Positions 4,341 through 13,821 of a DNA stretch of 64,000 bases are shown here, piece by piece; positions within the stretch are counted from its first letter, which is position 1; each line of letters opens with the position of its first letter. The notes under the pieces are model-generated. The model searched no databases and was not told the origin of the DNA. It was given only the letters and a program-made list of their open reading frames with translations. Origin of the DNA: Hoeflea sp. YIM 152468. GTDB lineage: Bacteria; Pseudomonadota; Alphaproteobacteria; Rhizobiales; Rhizobiaceae. Position numbers and translations under genes: made by a program. The stretch is from NCBI RefSeq assembly GCF_029210485.1, contig NZ_JARGET010000011.1, positions 62,001 through 126,000 of the forward strand, read 5' to 3'.

Positions 4341-7300
4341 ATGCACCTGCTTGTTGCACAGAAGGGAAGCTTGAGCGATGGCGATGAGGCCGTCGATCTC
4401 GGACAGAGCCCCGGTGACATTCTGTTCTTGAGTGCGGCGGATACTGAACTGGCCAGCATCGCAGCAGCACGGCAGACGACAGGTCAATTGAACTGGCGTC
4501 TGGCGAGCCTGAGCGATCTCAAACATCCGATGTCGGTCGACACCTTTGTGGCGAAGATGGCGCCGAAGGCCAGGCTGGTGATCGTCCGTGCGCTCGGCGG
4601 CGCGAGCTATTTTGCCTATGCGCTGGAAAGCCTGCACGCCGCATCAATCGCCAACGGCTTCAAGATTGCGGCGCTTCCCGGCGATGACCGGCCTGATCCG
4701 GGGCTGGAGCCGCTGTCGACGCTGGAGGCGGCGCAGCGCGACCAGCTTTGGGCCTATCTGATCGAAGGCGGCGCCGAGAATGCCCGCGGCCTGATCGAGT
4801 ATGCCGAGGCCCTGATTGAAGGCGGCGAGCGGCCCGCACCGGCCGCGCCGTTGCTCAAGGCGGGGTTGTGGCATCCGACCGTCAGCAGCCCCGAGCTTGC
4901 GGATCTGAGCAGGGACTGGATCAAAGACGCGCCGGTGGTGGCGATCTGTTTTTACCGGGCGCTGGTGCAGAGCGGTCAGACCGCGCCGGTACGCGCCTTG
5001 TGCGAGGCGCTCAAAGCCGGGGGCGCCAATGCGCTGCCGATTTTTGTCTCGAGCCTCAAGGATCCGGTTTCGGTTGGCACAGTGGAGGCGATTTTTGCCG
5101 ATGCCGCACCCGACGTGGTGATCAATGCCACCGGCTTTGCGGTGTCGTCGCCCGGAAGCCAGACCAAGGGCACAGTGCTGGAATCGACCGGTGCGCCGGT
5201 GCTGCAGGCCGTGTTTGCCGGCGGGGGACGCGAAGCCTGGGCCGCATCGCAGCAGGGTCTGACCTCGCGTGATCTGGCGATGCATGTGGCATTGCCCGAA
5301 GTTGATGGCCGGGTGCTGGCCCGGGCGGTGTCGTTCAAATCGGCGGCGCGGTTTGACGAGATGGTTGAGGCCAATATCGTCACCCATGCGCCGGAGCCGG
5401 ACCGGGTGCAGTTTGTCGCCGAACTGGCATCGCGCTGGGCGCGGTTGGCGCGGACGCCAGCGGCTGAGCGCCGGGTGGCCATTGTGCTGGCCAATTATCC
5501 CAACCGGGACGGCCGCATCGCCAATGGCGTCGGGCTTGATACACCGGCAGGCACCGTCGAGGTGCTGCGGGCTATGGCCGAAACCGGATACCAGGCGGGC
5601 GAGCTCCCCGCTGACGGCGATGCGCTGGTGCATGCATTGAAGGCCGGGCCGACCAATGCCATTGGCGACGGCCGCAGCGGCGGCGTGCCGCTGACGCTTG
5701 ACGACTATCAGGCGTTTTTCGAGACGCTCGACGCGTCGATCCGAAGTGCGGTGACCGAGCGCTGGGGCGCACCGGAAGCCGACCCGTTTTATCGCGATGG
5801 GGCGTTTCATCTGGCGCTGCTGAGATTCGGCAATGTTGCTGTCGGCATCCAGCCCGCCCGCGGTTACAACATCGACCCCAAGGCCAGCTATCATGCGCCG
5901 GATCTGGTGCCGCCGCATGGCTATTTCGCCTTCTATGCCTGGCTGCGCCGGAGCTTCGATGTCCATGCAGTTGTGCATATGGGCAAGCATGGCAATCTCG
6001 AATGGCTGCCGGGCAAGGCGCTGGCCTTGTCGCAGAGCTGCTATCCGGAAGCCGTGCTCGGGCCGCTGCCGCATGTCTATCCGTTCATCGTCAATGATCC
6101 GGGCGAGGGGACACAGGCCAAGCGGCGCACCTCGGCGGTGATCATCGACCATCTGACGCCGCCCTTGACCCGGGCCGAGAGCTACGGGCCGCTGAGGGAT
6201 CTCGAAGCGCTGGTCGATGAGTTTTACGAGGCGTCGGGTCACGACCCGCGACGGTTGAAGTTGCTCAAAGCCCAGATCCTCGACCTGGTACGTGATATCG
6301 GACTGGATGCCGATGCCGGAATCGTGCCGGGCGATGATGATGATCTGGCGCTGGAAAAGCTCGACGCCTGGCTGTGCGACCTCAAGGAAATGCAGATCCG
6401 CGACGGGCTGCACATTTTCGGGCTCTCGCCCGAGGGCGGGCTGCTGATCGACCTCACGGTGGCGCTGGCGCGGATCAAGCGCGGCGAAGCGCCAGGTGAG
6501 GACAGCCTGCAGCGGGCGATCGCGCGGGACATGGAGTTCACCGGGTTCGACCCGCTCGATTGCCCGATGGCAGAGCCATGGACCGGGCCGAAGCCTTCAA
6601 TCCTGCAAGTGGTCTCGGACGATCTCTGGCGCACCCACGGCGACACCGTCGAGCGGATCGAGCTGCTGGCGATCGAGCTGGTCTCGGGCCGCGTCGCATT
6701 GCCGGAAAACTGGCCGGCCACGGCTGCAGTGATGGAGAACATCCAGACCCTGATCAGACCCTCGGTGGAGGCCTGCGGTGCCGCCGAAATCCAAGGTCTG
6801 CTGACGGCGCTTGATGGCCGTTTCGTGGCACCCGGACCCTCCGGCGCGCCAACGCGGGGACGACCCGATGTGCTGCCGACGGGACGCAATTTCTACTCAG
6901 TCGACAGCCGCGCGGTGCCGACGCCGGCGGCGTGGGAGCTGGGCCGGAAATCGGCGGAACTGCTGGTCACCCGGCATGCGCAGGATCACGGCGAATGGCC
7001 GACCTCGATGGCGCTGACCGCCTGGGGCACGTCGAACATGCGTACCGGCGGCGATGATATCGCCCAGGCGCTGGCGCTGATTGGGGCAAAGCCGGTCTGG
7101 GATCCTGCTTCGCGGCGGGTCACCGGCTACGAGATCATTCCCCTGGCAATGATGCGCCGGCCGCGGGTTGATGTGACCCTGCGAATTTCGGGATTTTTCC
7201 GAGACGCCTTTCCGGATCAGATCGCGCTGTTTGACCGGGCTACCCGCGCTGTTGCGGCGCTGGACGAGGAGGAAGCGGACAATCCGCTGGCCGCCCGGGC

Positions 7301-8090
7301 GCGGGCTGAGACCGCCGGGCTGATCGCCGGTGGGGCATCTCCGGAGGCTGCCGCACGGCAGTCCTCGTTCCGGGTGTTCGGCTCCAAGCCAGGCGCCTAT
7401 GGCGCAGGCCTGCAGGCGCTGATGGACGAGGGCGGCTGGACCGAGCGCAGCGAACTGGCCGAGGCTTTCGTCGTCTGGGGCGGCTATGCCTATGGCGCGG
7501 GCAACGAAGGTCAGGCGGCGCACGAGCTGTTCGAGCAGCGGCTGTCGACGGTCGAGGCGGTGGTTCAGAACCAGGACAACCGCGAGCATGACCTGCTCGA
7601 TTCCGATGACTATTACCAGTTCGAAGGTGGCATGACGGCGGCGGTGGAAGCGGCCCGGGGAAGCCGTCCCGCGATCTATCACAATGACCATTCGCGGCCC
7701 GAGCGTCCGGTGATCCGCTCACTGGAAGAAGAAATTGCCCGCGTTGTGCGGGGCCGGGCGGTCAATCCGAAATGGATCGACGGCGTCAAGCGTCACGGCT
7801 ACAAGGGCGCCTTCGAGATGGCGGCGACCGTCGACTATCTGTTTGCTTTTGCCGCGACCACCGGAGCGGTGCGTGACGCCCATTTCGAGGCCGTCTACCA
7901 GGCCTACCTGATGGACGAGGACACGCTGGCGTTCCTGCGCGACAAGAATCCGGACGCGCTCAGGGAAATGGCGGCGAAATTCGATGAAGCGATCGACCGG
8001 GGACTGTGGACGCCGAAGAGCAATTCGGCCAGATTTGTGCTCGCTGAAGCTGGCGACAAGCTTATGCCAGATCACGGAGACCGGGCATGA
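4341..8090 (+). CDS. cobN: Cobaltochelatase subunit CobN (late, aerobic cobalt insertion)
   Basis: This 1249-residue protein is the large subunit of the ATP-dependent chelatase CobNST, which inserts Co2+ into hydrogenobyrinic acid a,c-diamide. It belongs with the BchH/ChlH magnesium chelatase subunits, and the length is normal. Typical segments include HMGKHGNLEWLPGK and the C-terminal EMAATVDYLFAFAATTGAV. The partner subunits CobS and CobT are not here; in alphaproteobacteria they are commonly encoded elsewhere. The start has no competitor: the N-terminus MHLLVAQKG matches CobN proteins. The stop overlaps the acetyltransferase start (ATGA). Confidence 0.96.
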   Translation: MHLLVAQKGSLSDGDEAVDLGQSPGDILFLSAADTELASIAAARQTTGQLNWRLASLSDLKHPMSVDTFVAKMAPKARLVIVRALGGASYFAYALESLHAASIANGFKIAALPGDDRPDPGLEPLSTLEAAQRDQLWAYLIEGGAENARGLIEYAEALIEGGERPAPAAPLLKAGLWHPTVSSPELADLSRDWIKDAPVVAICFYRALVQSGQTAPVRALCEALKAGGANALPIFVSSLKDPVSVGTVEAIFADAAPDVVINATGFAVSSPGSQTKGTVLESTGAPVLQAVFAGGGREAWAASQQGLTSRDLAMHVALPEVDGRVLARAVSFKSAARFDEMVEANIVTHAPEPDRVQFVAELASRWARLARTPAAERRVAIVLANYPNRDGRIANGVGLDTPAGTVEVLRAMAETGYQAGELPADGDALVHALKAGPTNAIGDGRSGGVPLTLDDYQAFFETLDASIRSAVTERWGAPEADPFYRDGAFHLALLRFGNVAVGIQPARGYNIDPKASYHAPDLVPPHGYFAFYAWLRRSFDVHAVVHMGKHGNLEWLPGKALALSQSCYPEAVLGPLPHVYPFIVNDPGEGTQAKRRTSAVIIDHLTPPLTRAESYGPLRDLEALVDEFYEASGHDPRRLKLLKAQILDLVRDIGLDADAGIVPGDDDDLALEKLDAWLCDLKEMQIRDGLHIFGLSPEGGLLIDLTVALARIKRGEAPGEDSLQRAIARDMEFTGFDPLDCPMAEPWTGPKPSILQVVSDDLWRTHGDTVERIELLAIELVSGRVALPENWPATAAVMENIQTLIRPSVEACGAAEIQGLLTALDGRFVAPGPSGAPTRGRPDVLPTGRNFYSVDSRAVPTPAAWELGRKSAELLVTRHAQDHGEWPTSMALTAWGTSNMRTGGDDIAQALALIGAKPVWDPASRRVTGYEIIPLAMMRRPRVDVTLRISGFFRDAFPDQIALFDRATRAVAALDEEEADNPLAARARAETAGLIAGGASPEAAARQSSFRVFGSKPGAYGAGLQALMDEGGWTERSELAEAFVVWGGYAYGAGNEGQAAHELFEQRLSTVEAVVQNQDNREHDLLDSDDYYQFEGGMTAAVEAARGSRPAIYHNDHSRPERPVIRSLEEEIARVVRGRAVNPKWIDGVKRHGYKGAFEMAATVDYLFAFAATTGAVRDAHFEAVYQAYLMDEDTLAFLRDKNPDALREMAAKFDEAIDRGLWTPKSNSARFVLAEAGDKLMPDHGDRA

Positions 8091-11013: not shown

Positions 11014-11436
11014 ATGACTGATGCGGCAAAAGACAACGGAACGTTCGGCGAGCGGGTGCGGGCTTTTCTCGATCTGAATACGTCAATGGACAAGGTGGCA
11101 AACGATCGGATGCTGACTGCCGAACTGCTGCTGCTGGTGAGAATGTCCTTTGCCAACAAGGCGGTCGACCCTGCCGAAGCCGATGCGTTTGCCGCCATCT
11201 GCACCCGGCTGCTGGGGCTTAATGGCGACGAACTGACCGACATCCTCAAATATCTCAATGATTTCGGCTACGAGACCACCGACGCCCAGGCGGCAGATAT
11301 GCTGGCGGGTCTCGATGAAGCGCGCAAACGCCAAATTCTTGATCATATGGCCATGGTTGCCAAGGCTGATGGCGAAGTCGATCCGCGCGAACGGCGTCTG
11401 CTGGAAGCGACGGCGCGGCGGCTGGGTTTCGCCTGA
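11014..11436 (+). CDS. TerB-domain protein
   Basis: A 140-residue, wholly helical, soluble protein. It has the TerB/DUF533 pattern: LLLLVRMSFANKAVDPAEADAF.. in the first half and MAMVAKADGEVDPRERRLLE in the second, each with an acidic DG/D-E loop typical of TerB-like metal-binding helices. TerB domains occur in tellurite-resistance and other stress proteins, but no ter operon is present. Function here is unknown. It is a lone gene between the two cobalamin blocks. Confidence 0.75.
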   Translation: MTDAAKDNGTFGERVRAFLDLNTSMDKVANDRMLTAELLLLVRMSFANKAVDPAEADAFAAICTRLLGLNGDELTDILKYLNDFGYETTDAQAADMLAGLDEARKRQILDHMAMVAKADGEVDPRERRLLEATARRLGFA

Positions 11437-11706
11437 CACGATTTCCCAAACCGCGCGTTCGGTTTTGGCGCAGATCAGCGTCTGGTTGCCGCATTCGGTG
11501 TTTGACCTGCAAATCCCGAACGCCTATGACATGGACTCATGTGCGACGGCGCCTGATGACAGGCTGAGAACTATTCCGGTGCGACCGACTTAATTCAAGG
11601 GTCAACTCCGGAGCTGTCCAGTTCGGTAAGATGAGAGGATCCCTGTGGTCGTTTCGCTTCATCCGGCGTATCGTGCTGAAGTTGTCACGCTGTCCGGAGG
11701 CTACCG

Positions 11707-11946
11707 ATGCGCACCCTTGTCTACTCCCTGATTTTCTCGATTCCCGGCGCGTCGCTCGCGCTCGCTCATGGTGGCCATGTCGGCGAACTGGCCGGCCACT
11801 CGCATTGGGTCGGCTGGGCTGCGGCTGCGGCGGCAGGTGCCATTGCGGCCTGGGCGATCAAGCGCGGCACCAGGAAGAAGTCAAACGCCCAGAACAATGC
11901 TGACGAAGCCGAATCCGACGCGCGACCAGACTCCGCGGAGGCTTGA
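11707..11946 (+). CDS. Small His-rich membrane protein (DUF6732-like) ahead of CbiX
   Basis: A 79-residue protein with a signal-like N-terminus ending ..LALAHGG. The His-rich segment HGGHVGELAGHSHW follows (about residues 20-33), then one membrane helix (about 34-50) and a polar charged tail. The start has a strong CGGAGG ribosome binding site. It ends 3 bp before the TTG start of the CbiX gene, so the two are co-translated. The His motif and the partner suggest cobalt handling; this is inference. The family name is from memory. Confidence 0.75.
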   Translation: MRTLVYSLIFSIPGASLALAHGGHVGELAGHSHWVGWAAAAAAGAIAAWAIKRGTRKKSNAQNNADEAESDARPDSAEA

Positions 11947-11949
11947 GTT

Positions 11950-13176
11950 TTGAGCAAGACAGAGATTCCCGAGACGACCGGCATCATGGTGTGCGGTCAC
12001 GGCAGCCGCAACCAGAACGCTGCCCAGCAATTCGCCACCGTGGCCGAAGGACTCAAAGCCCGTTATCCGGACACGCCGGTGGAATATGGCTATCTCGAAT
12101 TCTGCAACCCGGTGATTTCCGAAGGGCTCGACCGGCTTCGCGCCAAGGGTGTCACGCGGGTGCTGGCGGTGCCGGGCATGCTGTTTGCCGCTGGCCACGC
12201 CAAGAACGACATTCCCTCGGTGCTCAACACCTACCAGGCGCAAAATCCGGGCATGGTGATCAGCTACGGACGCGAACTGGGCATTGATCTGAAGATGATC
12301 CGCGCTGCAGGCGAACGGATCCAGCAGGCGCTCGACACGGCCAACAAGGAGCAGGGCGAGGTTGCGCTGCATGATACGCTGCTGATGGTGGTTGGCCGCG
12401 GATCGTCCGATCCGGACGCCAATTCCAACGCATCGAAGGTGATGCGGATGCTGTGGGAAGGCTTTGGCTTCGGCTGGGCCGAGACCTGCTATTCGGGCGT
12501 CACGTTTCCGCTGGTCGGTCCGGGGCTCAGTCATGCAGCCAAGCTCGGCTACAAGCGCATCATCGTGTTTCCGTATTTCCTGTTCACCGGCGTGCTGGTC
12601 AAGCGGATCTATGCGCAGACCGACGAGGTGGCGGCCAGCCATCCCGATATCCAGTTCATCAAGGCTTCCTATCTCAACGATCATCCGCTGGTGATCGACA
12701 CCTTCCAGGACCGGGTGCAGGAGATCCTCGATGGTCAGGCGCTGATGAACTGCCAGATGTGCAAGTACCGCGAGCAGGTGCTGGGCTTTGAGGCCGAAGT
12801 GGGGTTGCCGCAGGAAAGCCACCACCACCATGTCGAAGGCATTGGCGGCGGGCTGGAGGATTGCCCCTGCAAGGGCGATTGCGATGCCTCGTGCCGCGAG
12901 GAAGAGTTCTGCAAGGAGCACGGGCTGCCGTGGACGCCGGTGCACAGTCATGCAAGTCCGGCAGATCTGGAACCTGTGCATGATCATTCGCACGCGCATG
13001 ACCATAGCCACGGGCACGATCATCATCATGGCCACGGGCATAGCCACGATCATGTCCACGGGCATGACCACGGGCATGACCACAGCCACTCCCACTCCCA
13101 CGATCATCATCACCATCCCTATCCGCATGCCGACCATCCGCATGGCCCACGGTCGATGGAAAAGAAGAAGGCCTGA
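11950..13176 (+). CDS. cbiX: Long CbiX-type cobalt chelatase with MxCxxC and His-rich tail
   Basis: A 408-residue chelatase of the sirohydrochlorin/CbiX family. Two chelatase halves are visible: the first begins GIMVCGHGSRNQNA, and the second carries YKRIIVFPYFLFTGVL. Residues 266-271 read MNCQMC, the MxCxxC motif described for the long CbiX of Bacillus megaterium, which binds an Fe-S centre. A second Cys cluster follows (CPCKGDCDASC), and the last ~70 residues are a His-rich tail. CbiX inserts Co2+ early, into sirohydrochlorin. The start is TTG 11950, with GGAGG 8 bp upstream. It heads the cobH-cobM block. Confidence 0.88.
   Translation: MSKTEIPETTGIMVCGHGSRNQNAAQQFATVAEGLKARYPDTPVEYGYLEFCNPVISEGLDRLRAKGVTRVLAVPGMLFAAGHAKNDIPSVLNTYQAQNPGMVISYGRELGIDLKMIRAAGERIQQALDTANKEQGEVALHDTLLMVVGRGSSDPDANSNASKVMRMLWEGFGFGWAETCYSGVTFPLVGPGLSHAAKLGYKRIIVFPYFLFTGVLVKRIYAQTDEVAASHPDIQFIKASYLNDHPLVIDTFQDRVQEILDGQALMNCQMCKYREQVLGFEAEVGLPQESHHHHVEGIGGGLEDCPCKGDCDASCREEEFCKEHGLPWTPVHSHASPADLEPVHDHSHAHDHSHGHDHHHGHGHSHDHVHGHDHGHDHSHSHSHDHHHHPYPHADHPHGPRSMEKKKA
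12977..13125 (+). repeat. Degenerate His-codon repeats in the CbiX tail
   Basis: Short imperfect repeats built from CAT/CAC, GAC and GGC codons (for example CATGACCA, CACGGGCATGACCA) encode the HDHSHGHDHH tail. They are coding and not an independent element. Such stretches tend to vary in length between strains. Confidence 0.7.
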
Positions 13177-13179
13177 GGC

Positions 13180-13821
13180 ATGGTTGCCTCCGCCCCCATC
13201 CGCGATCCGGCTGAAATCTACCGGAAGTCCTTCGCCATCATCCGCGCGGAGGCCGATCTTGCGCGGTTTGATGCCGATTCCCAGGAGGTGGTGGTCCGGA
13301 TGATCCATGCCTGCGGCATGGTGGATCTGGCTGCTGATATCGTTGTCTCATCAGAACTGACGGCATCCGCGCGGGCTGCGCTGCAGGCTGGTGCACCGGT
13401 GCTGTGTGATGTGGAAATGGTGCGTCAGGGTATAATCACCCGGCTGATGCCTGCCGGCAACGAGGTGCTGTGCCTGCTCAATGAGCCGCAGGTGCGCGTG
13501 ATCGCGGCGCGCGATGCGACCACCCGGTCTGCGGCGCAGGTCGATCTGTGGGTCGAGCGGATGGCGGGTGCGGTGATTGCGATCGGCAATGCACCGACGG
13601 CTTTGTTCCGGCTGCTCGAACTGATCGATGCAGGAGCGCCCAGGCCGGCAGCGATACTCGGCATACCTGTGGGGTTCGTCGGCGCGGTGGAAAGCAAGGA
13701 CGCGCTGATTGCGAATCCGCGCGGAGTCGAGTTTCTCGCGGTCAAAGGCCGTCGTGGCGGCAGTGCGCTGGCCAGTTCGGCTGTCAACGCGATTGCCGGA
13801 GGGCTTGAAGGGCATGGCTGA
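13180..13821 (+). CDS. cobH: Precorrin-8X methylmutase
   Basis: CobH moves the methyl group from C-11 to C-12 of precorrin-8X, giving hydrogenobyrinic acid. The protein has 213 residues, and the catalytic His is His43 in MIHACGM, with the family segment [15 protein letters not shown] just before it. The end of the gene overlaps the cobL start by 8 bp. In aerobic loci cobG usually precedes cobH; here the long cbiX takes that place. Confidence 0.96.

Follow-up and report, generated by a model that had tools for sequence, protein, structure and literature searches.

CbiX proteins have been described with catalytic His residues in either half of the protein. As summarized in a review (PMC7689651), the catalytic His residues of Bacillus megaterium CbiXL lie in the N-terminal domain, whereas those of Paracoccus CbiX lie in the C-terminal domain; CbiXL further carries a 4Fe-4S center and a His-rich extension, the latter being dispensable for metal insertion. 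The Paracoccus enzyme was reported to be a ferrochelatase of siroheme synthesis in which His127 and His187 are essential, and this assignment was extended to alphaproteobacteria (Bali et al., 2014; PMC4063343). The same review gives HPxxGxDH as the motif of the HupE/UreJ permeases (PMC7689651). For cobalamin riboswitches, the ligand pocket is placed in P3–P6 in one study (PMC11260477), and another describes the B12 box as contributing the 3′ strands of P3 and P6 (PMC2258182). Our literature search, which covered mainly open-access papers, returned no paper on the domain of unknown function DUF6732. Titles and abstract openings of the papers listed contained no description of a cbiX leader such as that reported below, and the accessible part of PMC3766115 makes no mention of cbiX.

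We analyzed a stretch of 64,000 nucleotides from Hoeflea sp. YIM 152468 (hereafter the window), to which all coordinates refer unless stated otherwise. The gene for a long sirohydrochlorin chelatase, cbiX (11950–13176, + strand; 408 residues, TTG start), was identified by Pfam search (PF01903, 5.7e-54) and homologue alignment. The ORF upstream (11707–11946, + strand; 79 residues, 23 homologues) belongs to DUF6732 (PF20506; 1e-16, 61 bits against a curated cut-off of 27), and in the ORF listing its stop codon is separated from the TTG start by 3 nt, in agreement with the arrangement given in the preliminary description. Directly after cbiX, the operon continues with cobH/cbiC (13180–13821, + strand; PF02570, 1.1e-68), followed by genes read as cobL, cobI, and cbiG-cobJ. 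The CbiG–CobJ fusion was recognized by Pfam; cobL and cobI, as well as CobN, CobW, cobM, cobU, and cobO, were assigned by reading the sequence, with no family search.

The DUF6732–cbiX operon is headed by a conserved, covarying RNA that folds as a three-way junction. A strongly conserved block was found 5′ of the operon in 18 genomes of the genus and beyond, even where DUF6732 is missing, and the model R1 was built solely from leaders of cbiX operons. In the window, the core of the leader spans 11540–11621 (+ strand; 96.1 bits by cmsearch, a score obtained with the window locus, L001, in the R1 training set). It comprises a closing helix (11545–11550/11613–11618), P2 (11551–11555/11560–11564), P4 (11575–11579/11608–11612), and P5 (11583–11586/11600–11603 and 11589–11591/11597–11599), all on the + strand. 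An alignment of 28 leaders contained 95 cells with both sides of a pair changed, distributed over 23 pairs, compared with 29.9 in shuffled and 10–33 in slid controls. The corresponding value for 79 sequences aligned with R1, a set that leans toward P2, P4, and P5 and not toward the closing helix, which is absent from the model, was 193, compared with 54.2 shuffled and 14–53 slid. The closing helix itself was 97.4% paired in these 79 sequences, with both-side changes in five of its six pairs. Rfam searches at E ≤ 5 returned no cobalamin or other riboswitch match for positions 11350–11960 of the window or for 14 further loci; the window leader gave just two matches, both to unrelated eukaryotic RNA families and both below the gathering threshold. 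Seven leaders from the class sample (L077–L081, L083, and L084) had no cobalamin match at that threshold. None of the microRNA, snoRNA, and other Rfam matches at the window and the 14 loci reached it, and all were regarded as chance.

The relationship of the leader to cobalamin riboswitches emerged from the places at which R1 matched elsewhere. In 385 genomes of the class, R1 matched 55 places: seven cbiX leaders, six of which were training sequences, 45 cobalamin riboswitches (23 confirmed by Rfam RF00174 and 22 by J6/3 and B12 box), and three places with neither element, which are probably chance matches. The matches sit in the 5′ part of the 23 Rfam-confirmed riboswitches, and the P4–P5 arm of two riboswitches (L082 and L085) is almost identical to that of the leader. 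In the RF00174 structure, the partner of the GACGGC-equivalent strand is the far 3′ end, beyond the B12 box, and the box itself is paired with GGG; the leader lacks this GGG, and the partner of its GACGGC is GCUGUC, immediately past P4. The best match to J6/3 had two to four mismatches in all 25 cbiX leaders inspected and none in a full riboswitch (L016). Among the best 80 of 398 loci that encode a CbiX relative in a collection of named genomes, it had one to four mismatches (one in three loci), and such matches can coincide with the P4 strand, L213 being an example. For the B12 box, the best match had at least three mismatches in 24 of the 25 leaders, the remaining leader (L060) having one, at its ribosome-binding site; the range was one to six in the best 80 of 398, with one mismatch in two loci. 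By contrast, 22 of the 25 class-sample hits to which the motif test was applied had zero or one. The leader thus looks like a cobalamin riboswitch stripped of everything between P4 and the closing strand. We infer that it descends from such a riboswitch by loss of J6/3, the B12 box, and P6, whereupon the freed strand would have paired with GCUGUC. At L016 (2460–2690, − strand of that locus), cbiX lies behind a full cobalamin riboswitch, a possible ancestral state of the leader.

The leader was present 5′ of cbiX in each of the best 80 of 398 loci, with scores of 48–101 bits; some of these come from R1 training genomes, and the set covers soil and marine bacteria, with Hoeflea, Ciceribacter, Rhizobium, Allorhizobium, Agrobacterium vitis, Pararhizobium, Ahrensia, and others. 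Among 61 relatives, it preceded cbiX in 30 of the 32 genomes encoding CbiX (in G442 only as a partial match of 24.1 bits), the R1 search giving no leader 5′ of cbiX in G423 and G431. Across the class, seven of the cbiX loci examined (the best 30 of 109 genomes) carried an R1 leader, one (L016) the full riboswitch, and 22 no R1 match within the up to 1.5 kb of upstream sequence examined. Seven DUF6732 loci of a phylum-wide sample gave weak R1 matches (22–40 bits), one of them (L070) being a training sequence. R1 also matched 23 places away from cbiX in the relatives, of which 20 had J6/3 and the B12 box and three were leader-like. The leader-like elements of G425 and G412 precede a CbiG_C-type gene (read as cobE), a tetrapyrrole methylase gene (read as cobA), and cobB; that of G423 precedes cobH, behind which lie the presumed cobL, cobI, and cbiG-cobJ genes.

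Downstream of the core, RNAalifold analysis of 18 sequences of the genus delineated a probable expression platform (11662–11700, + strand), in which the Shine–Dalgarno sequence of DUF6732 lies within a hairpin conserved across the genus; UCCGG (11662–11666) can pair with CCGGA (11694–11698) at that Shine–Dalgarno sequence. In the group with cbiX directly after the leader (37 sequences), a GCUUCGU/ACGAAGC hairpin lies just 5′ of cbiX. A segment of the pre-start hairpin (11671–11678, + strand) shows partial complementarity to the leader's 5′ flank (11539–11546), a possible alternative pairing. The same eight-pair combination was found in 25 of the best 80 of 398 loci, 59 of which could be anchored for this count and 21 could not. 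Shuffling scored by the longest helix gave no significance for this pairing. Swapping 18 distinct pairs gave none either, with 161 of 2000 swaps reaching the observed value; when 27 distinct 5′ segments taken from 40 loci were swapped, the observed mean was reached in 6 of 500. The pairing would allow a switch, and the evidence for it is suggestive and modest at best. The leader is probably a riboswitch-derived regulatory RNA for corrin synthesis that acts at the ribosome-binding site. It would repress translation by masking this site, following the state of the corrin pathway, and, on the model of cobalamin riboswitches (PMC10653944), the folded core would be the state that represses.

What the leader senses may be read in three ways. 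It could still be a functional cobalamin riboswitch that has diverged past Rfam detection and binds adenosylcobalamin, as its position before B12 genes, its nearly identical P4–P5 arm, and the recovery of 45 cobalamin riboswitches by R1 in the class sample would suggest. We find this doubtful, given that J6/3 has at least two mismatches in all 25 leaders inspected, that the B12 box has at least three in 24 of them, and that the closing helix uses a strand that RF00174 pairs with the 3′ end. The missing pocket and the helices kept across families would suit a riboswitch-derived element that binds a protein or stabilizes the RNA, with no small-molecule sensing; we regard this as rather unlikely, since a corrin-synthesis operon follows in every case examined, which fits pathway feedback. 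Tentatively, and as a proposal short of even likelihood, we suggest that the leader belongs to a new RNA class, sensing a metabolite or a metal, that arose when a cobalamin riboswitch lost its pocket by deletion. Such an RNA would respond to another cue from the corrin pathway, for instance cobalt supply or an early tetrapyrrole intermediate, and set entry into corrin synthesis across Rhizobiaceae, with full cobalamin riboswitches of the same genomes controlling uptake and late steps.

We then considered the proteins encoded behind the leader. The three elements attributed to CbiX in the preliminary description were all located in the 408-residue ORF: the MNCQMC motif (12745–12762, + strand; residues 266–271, with Cys conserved in 55 of 55 homologues), the second Cys cluster (12862–12912, + strand; residues 305–321, CPCKGDCDASC...FC), and a His-rich tail (12943–13137, + strand; residues about 332–396) that is predicted to be disordered, with block mean pLDDT values of 36–48. 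Between the MNCQMC motif and the second Cys cluster lies an HHHH block (residues 291–294), which, together with MNCxxC (Cys268 and Cys271), was invariant in the 55 aligned homologues; four of 59 loci had been dropped from this set because the anchor motif was not found. Cys305, Cys307, Cys311, and Cys315 were present in 28 of the 55 homologues, namely all 25 members of the family of the window CbiX together with L062, L028, and L063, in the last two of which the cluster differs; Cys321 was present in 25. The C-terminal region of CbiX in L028 and L063 carries a differently written second Cys cluster, DCxLCDxFCxGxCR. In the preliminary description, the second cluster was noted as a feature not known from the long CbiX of Bacillus. 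His-rich ends are seen among the aligned homologues, and the end of the tail, HPYPHADHP, is well conserved among 26 aligned sequences. An AlphaFold model built with 26 sequences had a mean pLDDT of 72.2, the chelatase core being mostly confident to about residue 260 and the part past it of low confidence. The MNCQMC motif, the extra Cys residues, and the His tail may bind an Fe-S cluster or store metal, in an accessory capacity.

His17 and His83, a catalytic-type pair in the N-terminal domain, were invariant in all 55 homologues, and the equivalent places in the second half of the protein hold no His in a half-to-half alignment (GRGS and GVLV). A PDB search with residues 1–300 (E ≤ 1) gave as top matches 6jv6 and 5zt7, named sirohydrochlorin ferrochelatase, which we take to be SirB of Bacillus; Paracoccus CbiX was not among the 11 PDB sequences matched. 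The His pair of the window CbiX aligns with His residues of 6jv6 and 5zt7. The position of the pair is therefore no proof of cobalt, because the solved sirohydrochlorin ferrochelatases have the same N-terminal His pair. Nevertheless, the position of the active site argues, at the level of sequence, that the window CbiX is of the CbiXL type and unlike the Paracoccus siroheme enzyme.

The distribution of corrin genes in the 61 relatives bears on the metal. CbiX was found in 32 genomes and a CobG-like match in 20, with no overlap and nine genomes having neither. CobG-like here denotes a match of at least 184 bits; 16 of the 20 exceed the curated cut-off, and G410, G430, G419, and G433 (231.7, 222.6, 197.8, and 184.1 bits) are below it and were still counted. 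Matches to CobG scoring no more than 162 bits were taken as sulfite/nitrite reductases or other proteins; the one in the genome of the window lies close to cysG. Because the His pair is N-terminal and CbiX excludes CobG-like genes, cobalt is the likely metal of the window CbiX, which would insert Co2+ into sirohydrochlorin and so lead to ring contraction without the O2-dependent CobG. CbiD was detected in 30 of the 32 CbiX genomes, the two misses being genomes 75–77% complete, and in 9 of the 20 CobG-like genomes. These nine, with CbiD and a CobG-like gene and without CbiX, are G408, G409, G416–G419, G428, G429, and G438. The genome of the window also encodes CbiD (G000:C3:81822–82604) and CobK, and with the CbiG–CobJ fusion the early-insertion route looks complete on paper. 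Early cobalt insertion would not be the sole reading, given the CobN-like gene in the cluster and CobS in all 61 relatives; this very ubiquity made CobS uninformative as a marker of late insertion. The cluster thus holds both a CobN-like late cobaltochelatase gene (4341–8090) and the early-type chelatase gene cbiX (11950–13176). Upstream, a full cobalamin riboswitch (1387–1759, + strand; 68.1 bits) precedes the gene for CbtA (2002–2754), behind which lie genes read as cobU, cobW, and cobN, so that with the cbiX leader two kinds of B12-related leader occur in one gene cluster.

The linkage of DUF6732 to cbiX was examined by profile searches of 385 class genomes (7 with a match), 61 relatives (21), and 398 genomes of the phylum (12), adjacency being judged against CbiX places or by tblastn in the flanks. 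DUF6732 lay directly 5′ of cbiX in 7 of 7, 21 of 21, and 10 of 12 of these genomes, respectively, or in 35 of 37 distinct genomes over the union of the three samples. The idea that DUF6732-like genes might occur mostly away from cobalamin genes, raised in the preliminary description as an argument against the pairing, is thus not borne out. The two non-adjacent matches were the weakest in the phylum sample (28.2 and 22.7 bits), and one adjacent match, in G084, was below the curated cut-off (21.9 bits) and contained one internal stop. The converse linkage fails, with no DUF6732 match in 11 of the 32 CbiX genomes among the relatives. By motif search, a DUF6732-like gene stood between leader and cbiX in 35 of the best 80 of 398 loci (the call in L203 having picked the wrong frame), and none was found in the other 45; DUF6732 is therefore regarded as accessory. 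In L018 and L063, the slot between leader and cbiX is occupied by a HupE_UreJ permease. L065 has in this slot a small single-helix protein that begins signal-like and carries HEGH and HSHGE; its genome (G427) gives no match to the DUF6732 Pfam model. In L064, the slot holds another small signal-plus-helix protein, without His.

The DUF6732 protein consists, in order, of a signal-peptide-like stretch, HGGHVGELAGHSHW, a single hydrophobic helix, and a basic followed by an acidic tail. The 23 homologues, which had been selected by the His motif itself, share a signal-like start, HxGHxGxxAGHxH, a single helix rich in Ala, and then basic residues ahead of a tail that is mostly acidic. By the positive-inside rule, basic residues lie on the cytosolic side of the membrane. 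Because a signal-like stretch precedes the His motif and a hydrophobic helix and basic residues follow it, the motif is probably outside the membrane, on the periplasmic side and away from the cytosolic CbiX. This topology argues against a simple hand-off to CbiX and favors a protein that captures cobalt on the outside or assists a permease, CbtA being one candidate. DUF6732 would be exported to the periplasmic face, hold Co2+ by HxGH...GHSH, and aid cobalt supply as an optional component, filling the slot taken by HupE in some relatives. The earlier proposal that the pair passes cobalt from the membrane straight to the chelatase thus stands in part: a role in cobalt is supported by the corrin operon, HupE_UreJ in the same slot, CbtA in the window, and the mutual exclusion of CbiX and CobG-like genes, and the direct transfer is disfavored by the predicted topology.

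Two other functions of the pair have to be weighed against this reading. CbiX might be a sirohydrochlorin ferrochelatase for siroheme as in Paracoccus, with DUF6732 and the tail serving iron; this would accord with the extension of the Paracoccus role to alphaproteobacteria in that report (PMC4063343) and with the names of the best PDB matches of the window CbiX. We downgraded this iron/siroheme role to an improbable one on the active-site position, CysG, and CobG data: the His pair is N-terminal in 55 of 55 homologues, as in B. megaterium CbiXL, versus C-terminal in Paracoccus according to the review cited above (PMC7689651); the CysG N-domain occurs in 31 of the 32 CbiX relatives, so siroheme need not depend on CbiX; and CbiX excludes CobG-like genes and heads a corrin operon. 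DUF6732, for its part, could be a membrane anchor or regulator of CbiX and no metal carrier, since its acidic tail is predicted to be cytosolic, on the same side as CbiX, and the 3-nt distance between stop and start suggests coupled translation. That HxGH...GHxH occurs in all 23 listed homologues (chosen by that motif) and is predicted to lie outside, and that in L018 and L063 the slot is filled by HupE, makes this somewhat unlikely.

Taken as a whole, we consider it fairly probable that the locus is the head of a corrin operon, with early cobalt insertion, DUF6732 as an aid to supply, and a riboswitch-derived leader repressing translation. If true, a riboswitch class has given rise to a smaller RNA that retains just part of the aptamer. 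The leader makes it tractable to test how rhizobia control their entry into corrin synthesis; close relatives, in which CbiX and CobG exclude each other, provide a natural comparison of early versus late cobalt insertion; and the uncharacterized DUF6732 gains a place as a partner of CbiX.

In comparison with the described systems, the window CbiX resembles B. megaterium CbiXL (Leech et al., 2003, as covered in the review PMC7689651) in its N-terminal His pair, MXCXXC, and His-rich extension. With Paracoccus pantotrophus CbiX it shares membership of the CbiX-family class II chelatases in an alphaproteobacterium; the catalytic His residues of the latter are C-terminal, whereas the pair of the window CbiX is N-terminal, a contrast drawn from the equivalent places in the two halves of the window CbiX. 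DUF6732 shares with the HupE/UreJ family (PF04955) the slot before cbiX in L018 and L063 and, with the HupE of L018, a signal-like start followed by HxGH, but it has one predicted helix, gives no match to PF04955 at E ≤ 0.1, and does not contain HPxxGxDH. The leader has in common with class I cobalamin riboswitches (RF00174) the P2 hairpin, P4 with the GGUGC...AAAUCC internal loop, the P5 arm, and the place before B12 genes. It differs from them in having no J6/3 and no B12 box, hence no P6, in the loss of the GGG of P3, and in being closed as a three-way junction by GACGGC/GCUGUC, and it falls below Rfam recognition.
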